From: Herbiconiux sp. VKM Ac-1786
GTDB lineage: Bacteria > Actinomycetota > Actinomycetes > Actinomycetales > Microbacteriaceae
Direction of reading: 5' to 3'
Assembly (NCBI RefSeq): GCF_015350805.1
Contig: NZ_JADKSG010000002.1
Coordinates: 1,302,001-1,366,000 of the forward strand
DNA: 64,000 nucleotides
Below are positions 8,961 to 60,763 of this stretch, in pieces (the first letter of the stretch is position 1; each line of letters begins with the position of its first letter). The notes under the pieces were generated by a model. The model saw nothing but the letters and a program-made list of their open reading frames with translations, was not told the origin of the DNA and did no database searches. The translations under genes and the position numbers were made by a program.

Positions 8961-9009
8961 CGGGCTGAGTTCAGCTCAGATTAAACGAGCATTCATCAGC
9001 TGTTTCTGA

Positions 9010-9015
9010 TAGAAT
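9010..9015 (+). promoter_or_regulatory. -10 box of a leaderless promoter
   Basis: TAGAAT stands six bases before the ATG at 9022, so transcription should start at the start codon. The surrounding 60 bases are markedly AT-rich for this window. Confidence 0.6.
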
Positions 9016-9021
9016 CTCAGT

Positions 9022-10383
9022 ATGACTCCAGCTGCCCGCATCCACGAAATGGCCGCCGCACTCTGCGGCCGTTCGGGCGCGAGTCTGGCGGGTCTCGGCG
9101 ACGACGAGCTGCTCGAATTGATGGCCGCTTACGAGGCTCTCGGGCGTGCGGTGTCGGCGCAGCAGGTGCGGCTCGCCGGCGAGGTCGGGGTGCGGTCGCG
9201 CTCCGAACTCGGCGACGAGGGGTTGAGCCGGTCGCAGAACTTCACGACCCCGGTCGCGCTGGTCGCGAAGGTCACCGGGGCGTCGGCGCGGGCGTGCAAG
9301 GCGCGCCTCGAGCTCGGGCGCACACTGCGGGGCGCGGTGCTGCTGGGTGGGGGCGAAGGGCCGGCGCCGTTCCCGGTGGTCGCCCGCGTGCTCGATGAGG
9401 GCGTGCTGGGGGTCGAGGCTGCGTCGGCGATCGTGAAGCAGTGCGGCGTGCTCGCCGATCGCGGATGCTCGCCCGACGTCGTGGCCCTGGCTGAGGAAAC
9501 TCTCGTCGACCAGACCATTTCGTGCCGGCTCACGGCCGACGAAACCTTCCGGGCTGCGATCCATCTGCGCGAGGTGCTCGACCCCGACGGCGCTGAGCCG
9601 CGTGACGAGGTGTTGCAGATGCAGCGATCACTGACGATCGCGCAATCGTCGGATGGGATGTACCGGGGGAAGTTCGCGCTCGCCCCGGAGCAGGGCGGGG
9701 TGTGGATGGCGAGCATCCAGGCGATGCAGAGCCCCAGGGTGTCGGGGCCGCGGTTCGTCGATGGGGACGAGTACGTGACCGCTGATGGCCGCACGCAGGC
9801 GCAGAAGAACGCCGACACGGTGACTGAGCTCATCGCTCGCGCTGCCGGCGCTGATGACATGCCCCGCATCAACGGCGCCATCGCCACCGTCAACGTGCAC
9901 ATGACACTCGACGATCTCGAGAAGGGCCGCGGGGTCGGGTGGATCGACGGTATCGATCAGCCCGTTCCCGCCTCCACCGTCGCGCAGCTGCGGTGCTCAT
10001 CCCCCGTCGCGGCGACACTGTTCGGAGACAAGGGCGAGGTGCTCTACCACGGCAAGGCGAAGCGGCTCTTCACCGCGGCGCAGAACCGGGCCCTAGCCGC
10101 CCGGGACGGCGGCTGCGTGTGGCCCAGTTGCGACCGGCCACCGTCGTTCTGCGAGACACATCACGCGAACGAGTGGGTGTCGGACGATCATCCGCCCGGC
10201 AGAACCGATATCGACAACGGGGTTCTTCTCTGTCACTTCCACCATTCCCACCTGCACAAGACACCATGGAAACTGGTCATGCAAGGCGGTGTGCCCCATC
10301 TCATTCCACCGCGGTGGGTAGACACGGAACAGAAGCCGATCCCGACCACCCGGCGTCGCACCATTCAGCGACCCGCCGCTTAG
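9022..10383 (+). CDS. DUF222 domain HNH endonuclease (13E12 family), copy 1
   Basis: This 453-residue protein has an N-terminal helical DUF222 region and a C-terminal HNH domain. The HNH part shows paired Cys (CVWPSCD) and then ETHHANEW, with LCHFHH near residue 405, consistent with a Zn-stabilised ββα-metal nuclease. Such proteins are abundant paralogs in Mycobacteriales and Microbacteriaceae (REP13E12-type); their role is not known, although nuclease activity is expected. It shares domain order but not close sequence with the copy at 58474-59787. A hairpin 19 bases after its stop is nearly identical in its arms to the one beside that copy. Confidence 0.92.
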   Translation: MTPAARIHEMAAALCGRSGASLAGLGDDELLELMAAYEALGRAVSAQQVRLAGEVGVRSRSELGDEGLSRSQNFTTPVALVAKVTGASARACKARLELGRTLRGAVLLGGGEGPAPFPVVARVLDEGVLGVEAASAIVKQCGVLADRGCSPDVVALAEETLVDQTISCRLTADETFRAAIHLREVLDPDGAEPRDEVLQMQRSLTIAQSSDGMYRGKFALAPEQGGVWMASIQAMQSPRVSGPRFVDGDEYVTADGRTQAQKNADTVTELIARAAGADDMPRINGAIATVNVHMTLDDLEKGRGVGWIDGIDQPVPASTVAQLRCSSPVAATLFGDKGEVLYHGKAKRLFTAAQNRALAARDGGCVWPSCDRPPSFCETHHANEWVSDDHPPGRTDIDNGVLLCHFHHSHLHKTPWKLVMQGGVPHLIPPRWVDTEQKPIPTTRRRTIQRPAA

Positions 10384-10401
10384 CCGACCACCGCTATTCG
10401 A

Positions 10402-10457
10402 GGGCAAGCGCGAAGCGCGCGGCAGCAGGCGGCTGCCGCGCGCTCACGCGCTTGCCC
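10402..10457. repeat. REP-like hairpin beside DUF222-HNH copy 1
   Basis: Arms 10402-10426 and 10432-10457 are complementary except for a one-base insertion and a neighbouring mismatch, with a five-base loop. The left arm starts GGGCAAGCGCG and ends GGCAGC. The arm differs at one base from the arm at 59883-59906. It could end transcription in both directions, but lacks a T tract. Confidence 0.85.
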
Positions 10458-10536
10458 GAGATGGTCATGGCCGGGTCGGGAGGACCGGCTCGCCGCGAGC
10501 GGGTTTCGAGTGGAAGAGCCGGTGGCGAGGTGGCTG

Positions 10537-58473: not shown

Positions 58474-59787
58474 CTAGAACGGCGGATGGTCGGGAAGATG
58501 CCGAGTCGCAGCCGGCGGGGAGGGCGGCTGCGCCGGGGGCGGTGGGCCGCCGCGCTCGGGCGGCCGCGTGGTGTGGCGGGCGCCGGACGGCGACCTCCAG
58601 TGCAGCGCCCGACCCTCCCCCGCCTCGACCTGCCAGCCCGTCTGGTGCTTCAGGGTGTGGTGACGGCGGCAGAGCGCCGCGAGGTTGTCGAGGCCGGTCT
58701 CGCCGCCACGCGCCCAGTCGGTGGTGTGGTCGAGGTCGCAGCGGTCGGCGCGGCGCACGCAGCCCGGGAAGCGGCAGGTCTCGTCGTCGAGCACCACCGC
58801 CGCCCGCAGATCGGCGGGCACCTTGTAGCGATCGCGCCCCACGGAGAGCCGCTGACCCGTGATCGGGTCGGTCAGGATGCGCAGGAACGACGGCGCCCCC
58901 GCCGCCAGCCGGCGGGCCGCCTCGACCGGGATCGGCCCGTAGCCCTGCAGCTCGCCGGCCCGCATCGACCGCCCGAGCAGCGTCAGCACCGGCACGGTGA
59001 CGACGACGTTCGCCGTGATTCCGCGAGCCCGCGCCGCGGTGTCGCCGTCGCGGTGCAGCAGCAGCTCGACCAGCCCGTCGGCCCTCAGCTGGGCGTGGGT
59101 GCGCGACTCCTCGGGAGAGCGCAGCGCCCGCCCGAGCTGGTCGAGGGTGTCGTCGATGGCGAACGCGTCGACGGCGGACAGGTGACAGACGAGCGTCGCC
59201 ATGCCGTCACGCTCCTTCTCGAGCCACACCGCCCGCTCGTCGCGCGCCTCACGGTGGCGGACGTCGATCGATTCGGGGTGCATCCGCTCTCGGACCGCCC
59301 GCGCGTGCGCCGCCAGCTGCGACGGGGTCTGCGACTCGGCCTTCGCGGTCGCGACCGCCTCGAACTCGCCGCGCGCCCCCTCGGGCAGCGTTCGCGCCTG
59401 CCGCACCACGGACTGGGCGTGCGCATAGCCGATGTCACCGCGGGCCAGCGAGGCGAGGGTGACGGGCAGGAAATCGGTGAGCGTCTCGGCGTCGTCGATG
59501 CGCTGCGAGGCGGTCGACTCCGGAACGTGCAACGCGGTGGCGACCTCGGCCACGAGCGACCGCCGCGAGTGCTCGAGAGACCCGCCGGGCAGCGCGGCCA
59601 GCCAGTTCGCCTTGCGAGCGGCCTCGGCCAGCAGCCCGACCGCCCTCGCCTCGAGCACCGCCTGCTCCCGCCGGATCAGCGCCACCTCGTCGACGTCGGC
59701 CCCGATGCCCCACAGCAACCGCTCGCGCGTCGCATCAACCGAGCGCCCCTCGAGGGGTGCGGGAGCGAAGGCGAGTGAACTGTTCAT
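58474..59787 (-). CDS. DUF222 domain HNH endonuclease (13E12 family), copy 2
   Basis: This 437-residue protein has a DUF222 helical region with a possible DNA-recognition part (HVPESTASQRIDDAE) and a C-terminal HNH domain with CRFPGC, DLDHTTDWARGG and LCRRHHTLKH. The HNH motif is a closer match to active HNH nucleases than that of copy 1. Role unknown. A perfect hairpin lies about 90 bases upstream of its ATG; its arms match the hairpin after copy 1 at all but one position. Confidence 0.93.
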   Translation of the reverse strand: MNSSLAFAPAPLEGRSVDATRERLLWGIGADVDEVALIRREQAVLEARAVGLLAEAARKANWLAALPGGSLEHSRRSLVAEVATALHVPESTASQRIDDAETLTDFLPVTLASLARGDIGYAHAQSVVRQARTLPEGARGEFEAVATAKAESQTPSQLAAHARAVRERMHPESIDVRHREARDERAVWLEKERDGMATLVCHLSAVDAFAIDDTLDQLGRALRSPEESRTHAQLRADGLVELLLHRDGDTAARARGITANVVVTVPVLTLLGRSMRAGELQGYGPIPVEAARRLAAGAPSFLRILTDPITGQRLSVGRDRYKVPADLRAAVVLDDETCRFPGCVRRADRCDLDHTTDWARGGETGLDNLAALCRRHHTLKHQTGWQVEAGEGRALHWRSPSGARHTTRPPERGGPPPPAQPPSPPAATRHLPDHPPF

Positions 59788-59881
59788 GAGCTTGCCTCAA
59801 TCCTACCGCGGCCCGCCTCCGACCTCAAGCAAACCGGCAGATCACAGCGACAATTCCTCCCGACCCGACCACATCCATCGA

Positions 59882-59967
59882 GGGCAAGCGCGGAGCGCGC
59901 GGCAGCCGCCCGCTACCGCCCCCAGGCGCCCAAAGCCGACAGGGCTGCCGCGCGCTCCGCGCTTGCC
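59882..59967. repeat. REP-like hairpin beside DUF222-HNH copy 2
   Basis: Arms 59883-59906 and 59944-59967 are perfectly complementary over 24 bp around a 37-base loop. They start GGCAAGCGCGG and end GGCAGC. The flanking TCGAGG before the left arm is also shared with the copy at 10402. Confidence 0.88.
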
Positions 59968-60061
59968 GACGACGGTCACTGCTCGCGTTCTCGAGAGCCA
60001 CGACGGTCACCGTTCGCCTGCTGTTCGCCCGGCCACGCGCGTGGCACCGACGCCGACTGGC

Positions 60062-60073: not shown

Positions 60074-60763
60074 ATGACGTCGGCACGGTGGTCATTGGTC
60101 GTCGCCGGATTGTGGCTGGCCTCGGCGGGGCTGCAGGTGGCCGCGTCGCTCGAGCGGTGGGTGGTCGCGGCCGGCTCCTGGACGCGAGACCAGGTGTCGA
60201 TCAAGGATCACCGCTTCGACTACTCCTGGCCCGCCGATCCATGGGAGAACGTGGGCGCCGCGGCTCAGCTGCACGGTGCCGGGCTGCTGCTGCTCGCGAT
60301 CGGCCTGCTGCTGCTCCCGCGAGCGGCTGCCGGCCGCAACCCCGGCCTCGACGGCGTGGCCGTGATCGTCATCGCCGCCCTGGCAGGGTTCGACGGCATC
60401 CACGTGCTCGCGTCAGGGCTGCTGGGGTTCCCGTCGCCGCTCCAGTACCTGCCGGTGCAGCTCCTGCTCACGGGAGTGAGCGCCATCGGCCTCGTCTACC
60501 TGGCTGCCGAACGCTTCACCTCGACGACCTGGCCGGCCGCGATCGCCTGCCTCCTCCTCGTCGGCAGCACGATGCCAGGGCTGCTCGTGGCAGCCTTCGT
60601 CATCGCCCCCGCCGTGGTCGGCTACCAGTCGTTCGACACGACTCCATGGACGGAGACCATCGTCGCCGCCTGGACCGCCCTCGCCGCCGTCGCGATGCTC
60701 GTCGCGGCGGGCCTGTCAGCGCGCAAGGCCTCGATCGGCCGACGCCGTACGAATCAGCGGTAG
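60074..60763 (+). CDS. Multi-pass membrane protein of unknown function
   Basis: This 229-residue protein has about six hydrophobic segments. After the first helix (residues 6-25) comes an extracytoplasmic loop containing SWTRDQVSIKDHRFDYSWP. No family is recognised. It has its own leaderless promoter. It ends shortly before the tRNA-Gln terminator on the other strand. Confidence 0.72.
   Translation: MTSARWSLVVAGLWLASAGLQVAASLERWVVAAGSWTRDQVSIKDHRFDYSWPADPWENVGAAAQLHGAGLLLLAIGLLLLPRAAAGRNPGLDGVAVIVIAALAGFDGIHVLASGLLGFPSPLQYLPVQLLLTGVSAIGLVYLAAERFTSTTWPAAIACLLLVGSTMPGLLVAAFVIAPAVVGYQSFDTTPWTETIVAAWTALAAVAMLVAAGLSARKASIGRRRTNQR

Follow-up and report, generated by a model that had tools for sequence, protein, structure and literature searches.

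Two hairpins beside two DUF222-HNH genes

The window, by which we mean the whole 64,000-nucleotide stretch of the Herbiconiux sp. VKM Ac-1786 genome analysed here, contains two genes encoding DUF222-HNH proteins, each accompanied by a hairpin. The hairpin arms belong to a directional sequence of approximately 46 nt, designated the half-site, in which the core (GGCAAGCGCGNAGCGCGCGGCAGC) is conserved, the outer tail (GACCCAGCCATGNCCATCGA) is moderately conserved and the head side shows little conservation. As the original prediction had it, the two hairpins are near-identical and lie beside the two DUF222-HNH copies, with the following arrangement of features:

8983..9021, + strand: left end and promoter-like leader of the copy 1 unit (AAACGAGCATTCATCAGCTGTTTCTGATAGAATCTCAGT, an imperfect inverted repeat), abutting the ATG
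9022..10383, + strand: DUF222-HNH gene copy 1 (453 aa, A-type, superclade II; Pfam DUF222, 99.2 bits)
10384..10402, + strand: diverged outer tail of the gene-proximal half-site of copy 1 (compare the tail consensus GACCCAGCCATGNCCATCGA)
10403..10426, + strand: half-site core, left arm of hairpin 1 (GGCAAGCGCGAAGCGCGCGGCAGC), 24 nt
10432..10456, - strand: half-site core, right arm of hairpin 1, 25 nt; the layout is gene, then head-in pair
10457..10477, - strand: outer tail of the distal half-site and right end of the copy 1 unit (CGAGATGGTCATGGCCGGGTC), where conservation among the A-type copies (n = 10) stops
58474..59787, - strand: DUF222-HNH gene copy 2 (437 aa, superclade I; Pfam DUF222, 114.1 bits; HNH PF01844, 26.5 bits)
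59862..59882, + strand: outer tail of the gene-proximal half-site of copy 2 (GACCCGACCACATCCATCGAG)
59883..59906, + strand: half-site core, gene-proximal arm of hairpin 2
59944..59967, - strand: half-site core, distal arm of hairpin 2; the layout is head-in pair, then gene
59968..59987, - strand: weak outer tail of the distal half-site of hairpin 2

Hairpin 1 starts 19 nt past the stop codon of copy 1 and has a loop of 5 nt, whereas hairpin 2, which combines a perfect 24-bp stem with a 37-nt loop, is located 95 nt upstream of the copy 2 start, between this gene (-) and a divergent ORF at 60074-60763 (+). The left arms differ by one base (A versus G at core position 11) and both are preceded by TCGAGG; in the right arm of copy 1, TG replaces the variable base. 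Folding of both hairpins beats that of 200/200 shuffles (z -6.7 and -6.8). A scan of the window with the 20-nt core, allowing up to 3 mismatches, returned three matches, every one of them exact, the fourth arm being the one with the extra base and hence absent from these three; no arm copies were found beyond the two hairpins, in agreement with the original prediction, as are the shared TCGAGG and the difference in loop length. Shuffled windows gave a mean of 0.82 matches, with three or more in 8 of 100 shuffles, a control that counts matches with up to 3 mismatches and is hence no gauge for exact ones. A known Rfam RNA at the hairpins was rejected, the sole Rfam match in the window being a tRNA. 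The leader and left end of copy 1 are conserved across the 10 A-type copies in the same genome and are preceded by unrelated sequence.

The two proteins are clearly diverged, as had been noted, with 24% identity, and both exceed the gathering score for DUF222 (PF02720; 24.4). Both carry a C-terminal HNH nuclease motif, which in copy 2 is detected as PF01844. In copy 1, for which the Pfam search gave no HNH match, it is recognised from conserved residues (C365, P368, C370, H381, N399, H407, H408 and H412, invariant among the four sequences of alignment A1) together with a weak PHROG HNH match (E 0.005). The AlphaFold model of copy 1 has a mean pLDDT of 53.5, and a PDB fold search with this low-pLDDT model gave no match at E up to 0.001; the PDB sequence search returned a single weak match (E 0.035). 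Two candidate identities were rejected, namely a known anti-phage system (PADLOC, 0 matches) and an RNA-guided nuclease of the IscB type (12.1 bits in NCBIfam, where the cut-off is 175).

Near-obligate association of half-sites with DUF222 genes

The genome to which the window belongs (G000, 3.89 Mb) contains 13 DUF222 genes, and all 13 are within 1 kb of an arm. When up to 3 mismatches are allowed, the arm matches this genome 21 times and a reversed control pattern 0 times. Across 16 Herbiconiux genomes, this one included, DUF222 is present in every genome (134 matches, merged into 126 genes) and arms with up to 3 mismatches are present in 14. Proximity to a DUF222 match within 1 kb was observed for 107/117 arms with at most 1 mismatch (85/93 exact arms and 22/24 with 1 mismatch) and for 3/9 and 2/12 arms with 2 and 3 mismatches, respectively. 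These more degenerate arms thus lie mostly elsewhere (16/21 beyond 1 kb), and the one distant example that was examined, L034, had no DUF222 match. Counted by sites, 73/81 are near DUF222 against 0.46 expected from coverage, a test that took 66.3 Mb in total where the rounded genome sizes sum to about 67.4.

Ten arms with at most 1 mismatch are distant, and eight of these lie next to remnants or fragments of DUF222 genes. Four adjoin remnants, three of them in G003 and one in G000 (C1:1898682), and three in G006 adjoin fragments that were uncounted in the gene census. The arm at C1:757814 in G000 has no tblastn match, yet can be aligned to the final part of an A-type gene, and a full unit occupies the syntenic position in G003. 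The other two, both in G007, are separated from a contig end by 29 bases, and the available side shows no DUF222 match. Hence 115/117 arms adjoin a gene, fragment or remnant, the other 2 being at contig ends, and the association between half-site and DUF222 genes is near-obligate; a scattered REP with no such tie was rejected. The predicted link with DUF222-HNH genes is supported. In G003, the hairpin also accompanies the syntenic neighbours of both window copies, whereas 55/126 DUF222 genes in the genus have no arm within 1 kb (up to 2 mismatches), and genes with an arm are few in G006 (0/8), G011 (1/10) and G005 (3/12). By eye, a DUF222-HNH fragment and hairpin on contig C11 of G006 (L078) lie directly beside transposase-like sequence.

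The layout census, which used a fuzzy core match (up to 4 edits), covers 129 half-sites beside 111 genes and omits 15/126 merged DUF222 genes for which the stretch or a usable ORF was lacking. Most A-type genes are followed by a head-in pair, with the hairpin starting mostly 17-40 nt past the stop codon. A head-in pair precedes the gene at copy 2 and also at A-type genes of G012 and G015, and further layouts comprise a tail-in pair then the gene, a gene between two half-sites, and single half-sites. Head-in or tail-in pairs occur at 57 loci. In the upstream layouts the half-site lies approximately 40-200 bp before the start codon, a position at which it might act as an operator or otherwise regulate the DUF222-HNH genes. 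We regard such a role as very improbable, given that most A-type half-sites follow the gene, that the conserved leader before the start codon is a separate element and that many DUF222 genes have no half-site.

A-type units are located between convergent genes in 10/10 cases in their own genome (by a codon-position call, one weak) and in 25/31 cases across four genomes, where one of the rest has no assignable direction. Together with the position shortly after the stop codon and the very stable folds, this would suit a transcription terminator or insulator that is carried by a selfish gene between convergent genes, and whose sequence is held in common through recombination of the units. This reading is nevertheless unlikely, since no T run, as expected of an intrinsic terminator, follows either window stem, hairpin 2 is situated between two divergent ORFs and other layouts place half-sites upstream of the gene. 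Moreover, half-sites that are partnerless in the scan retain an intact core, save for the variable base, in 8/10 cases, a figure biased by core-based finding and including L058, which has a degenerate partner. At the variable base the two arms agree in 12/52 typed pairs, no better than the approximately 10.9 in shuffles. Since half-sites without a partner in the scan mostly keep the core and the variable base agrees between arms no more than in shuffles, pairing alone fails to explain the conservation.

Mobile units, empty sites and other palindromes

The A-type units (n = 10 in their own genome) have sharp ends and the order left end, gene, hairpin, with the left end approximately 38 bp before the ATG and the right end at GGGTC; sequence outside both ends is unrelated among the 10 copies. 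Searches with the joined flanks of 12/13 loci from this genome identified empty sites for several units. The copy 1 unit is present at the syntenic site in G003, and at the corresponding site in G004 the aligned flanks are 20 bp apart, with the nearest bases of both flanks unaligned; for L011, the flanks in G003 are about 6 kb apart. In the four occupied/empty pairs that were aligned, the empty site has neither the left end nor the hairpin. Because the empty sites contain neither gene nor hairpin, the hairpin travels with the gene; the earlier suggestion that hairpins mark insertion sites is unsupported in the sense of this hairpin preceding the unit, and a pre-existing half-site hairpin as the landing site was rejected. 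At the unit junctions, the nearest genomes are too diverged for a target duplication to be read.

The A-type units are thus multicopy and sharp-ended, and are wholly absent, with gene, hairpin and left end, from syntenic empty sites, so that they show the defined ends and occupied/empty differences of an insertion sequence. They also decay in place, leaving the hairpin behind.

A second long palindrome, unrelated to the first, is found in Herbiconiux as five inverted pairs (L232, L233, L235, L236 and L241). Three of these lie directly before A-type genes and are joined to their left end. The other two (in G015 and on G014 C78) have no DUF222 match in the stretch examined, the pair in G015 being 2.6 kb from a DUF222 gene. 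There are two more single matches with 3 mismatches each (G008 and G014 C100).

A genome of another genus, G035, carries a REP-like palindrome (CCTGAGCCTGTCGAAGG) that is unrelated to the half-site and is present in at least 71 exact copies. Among the matches listed, in which 71 exact copies were used out of 115 with at most 1 mismatch, 9 of the at least 71 are within 1.5 kb of nine DUF222 genes (0.7 expected) and 62 are elsewhere. This palindrome flanks DUF222 genes of both protein superclades described below, and G035 has no Y1_Tnp match.

Such copies away from DUF222 genes, in G035 and in two of the five pairs of the second Herbiconiux palindrome, raise the alternative that the palindromes are independent small mobile elements, REPIN- or MITE-like, which DUF222-HNH genes picked up or landed beside. 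Two empty sites (in G003 at the L004 site and in G000 at the L055 site) have no half-site hairpin but hold unrelated inverted repeats, as read by eye, and a liking of the units for palindromic places is conceivable. Set against this are the absence of any proven solo copy of the half-site, the adjoining of almost every arm to a gene, fragment or remnant, the lack of half-sites at the empty sites and the lack of a Y1_Tnp match in G035; we judge independent elements to be improbable.

Among the other genera, three DUF222 genes of G039 have a third palindrome in common, and no palindrome common to three or more genes was found in G016, G021, G022 or G030, in a search restricted to 13-mers common to at least three genes. 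In G021, L134 and L137 share by eye a repeat right after the gene (around CTCGACAGGCTCGATCAGCG), below this three-gene threshold. Eight DUF222-HNH paralogs in G022 (L112-L119) have in common a leader (about TTGAGGCAATGTCAGTGGTTGGTGTTTGAC) immediately upstream of the start codon. An alignment of six of them is unrelated beyond the leader and contains a short conserved stretch after the stop codon and no hairpin; such genes can therefore multiply without one.

Candidate nuclease target and known systems compared

DUF222-HNH genes are common and multicopy in the family, occurring in 19/31 sampled genomes. By contrast with the protein, the half-site is confined to Herbiconiux in the family sample. 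Among 150 genomes from 85 genera, the arm (at most 1 mismatch) is present in three, G000, G004 and G006, which are all of the Herbiconiux genomes in that sample, and in 0/147 genomes from the 84 other genera. A FastTree phylogeny of 160 proteins resolves two superclades, each containing Herbiconiux and five or six other genera. Its input comprised proteins of at least 380 aa, including some poorly framed ORFs (e.g. L212), and it has long branches. The half-site occurs on both superclades and in many layouts. Since it is present on both superclades but only in Herbiconiux within the family sample, simple inheritance along with a protein subfamily does not explain it; it was exchanged or acquired within the genus, as far as a tree with long branches and poorly framed rows can indicate. 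The likeness of half-sites from different clades is 0.608 within a genome versus 0.573 between genomes, which weakly suggests that exchange may occur inside genomes.

A TGTCRGTGG-like motif, resembling the PafBC/RecA-NDp type, is located near the start codon in Herbiconiux and six other genera. Allowing 1 mismatch and scanning from 150 bp before to 60 bp after the ORF start, we found it at 43/61 non-A-type Herbiconiux genes and 39/59 genes of the six other genera, against 14/151 control windows; A-type genes have it in 6/50 cases. The motif suggests that DUF222 genes may be induced by DNA damage. We infer that five tuberculosis items in PMC8151990 are DUF222 proteins.

Our preferred reading, to which we assign a probability of about one half, is that the hairpin is an inverted pair of half-sites within the DUF222-HNH mobile units of Herbiconiux and a putative target of their nucleases. 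The half-site would be recognised by the DUF222-HNH proteins, with the resident nucleases binding it and nicking or cutting the DNA there. Break repair or gene conversion at half-sites would then copy the unit, and the same process could spread half-sites among distantly related DUF222-HNH genes of one genome. The arrangement as a whole suggests a mobile system of two parts, these genes and the repeat, in which the half-site would relate to the DUF222-HNH gene much as REPINs do to RAYTs, with an unrelated HNH protein. The DUF222 domain is still named for its 'unknown function', and a fixed DNA partner that is restricted to one genus and common to deeply diverged members offers a direct test of binding and cleavage.

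Free-standing HNH homing endonuclease genes are intergenic and selfish-looking and show presence/absence differences. The Herbiconiux units share these features and differ in that one and the same unit, with a palindrome at its terminus and ends that are fixed, occurs at numerous non-homologous sites. The open-licence literature yielded no report tying DUF222-HNH genes to a palindrome.

The REP13E12 (13E12) family of Mycobacterium tuberculosis has been tied to DUF222-HNH proteins in the accessible text of PMC10589994. It resembles the Herbiconiux units in encoding the same kind of protein and in being multicopy; a cognate palindrome is not among the features described in that portion of the source. 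The accessible part of PMC13061034 places a prophage attachment site, called putative, inside the repeat and describes gene conversion as frequent at these related REP13E12 loci. On a more speculative level, and at rather longer odds than our preferred reading, DUF222-HNH proteins might represent a second, non-HUH partner class for REPIN-like palindromes, in which some actinobacterial genera have their own palindrome, common to resident DUF222-HNH genes of deeply different clades (Herbiconiux, G035), the nucleases preserve and copy the palindromes as well as their own genes, perhaps in a manner controlled by DNA damage, and REP13E12 of mycobacteria is of the same kind.

CGTC-tagged REPs are palindromic and, in the available text of PMC3733652, no dedicated transposase was found for them; unlike these, the Herbiconiux half-site consensus has no CGTC tag and has an evident gene partner. 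REPINs and RAYTs, as presented in the accessible parts of PMC3116915 and PMC3733652, comprise directional repeats that are arranged as spaced inverted pairs and form hairpins near a nuclease gene, the flanking repeats varying in organisation and position. The REP/RAYT likeness proposed originally holds for the architecture, since Herbiconiux has directional half-sites in inverted doublets with a spacer beside a nuclease gene, as in a REPtron, but not for the partner or the distribution. The half-site consensus begins GACCC and ends GGCAGC, with no GTAG end, and is not dispersed away from its partner genes. Y1_Tnp (PF01797) gave 0 matches in seven of eight Herbiconiux genomes tested (G000, G001, G003, G005, G012, G013 and G015), the only match being G004:C11:24558-24878, and spread by a RAYT was rejected on this basis. 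The RAYT is an HUH Y1 transposase, whereas the Herbiconiux partner is an HNH-DUF222 protein; if our reading is true, a nuclease with no relationship to the tyrosine transposases is able to maintain palindromic repeats.
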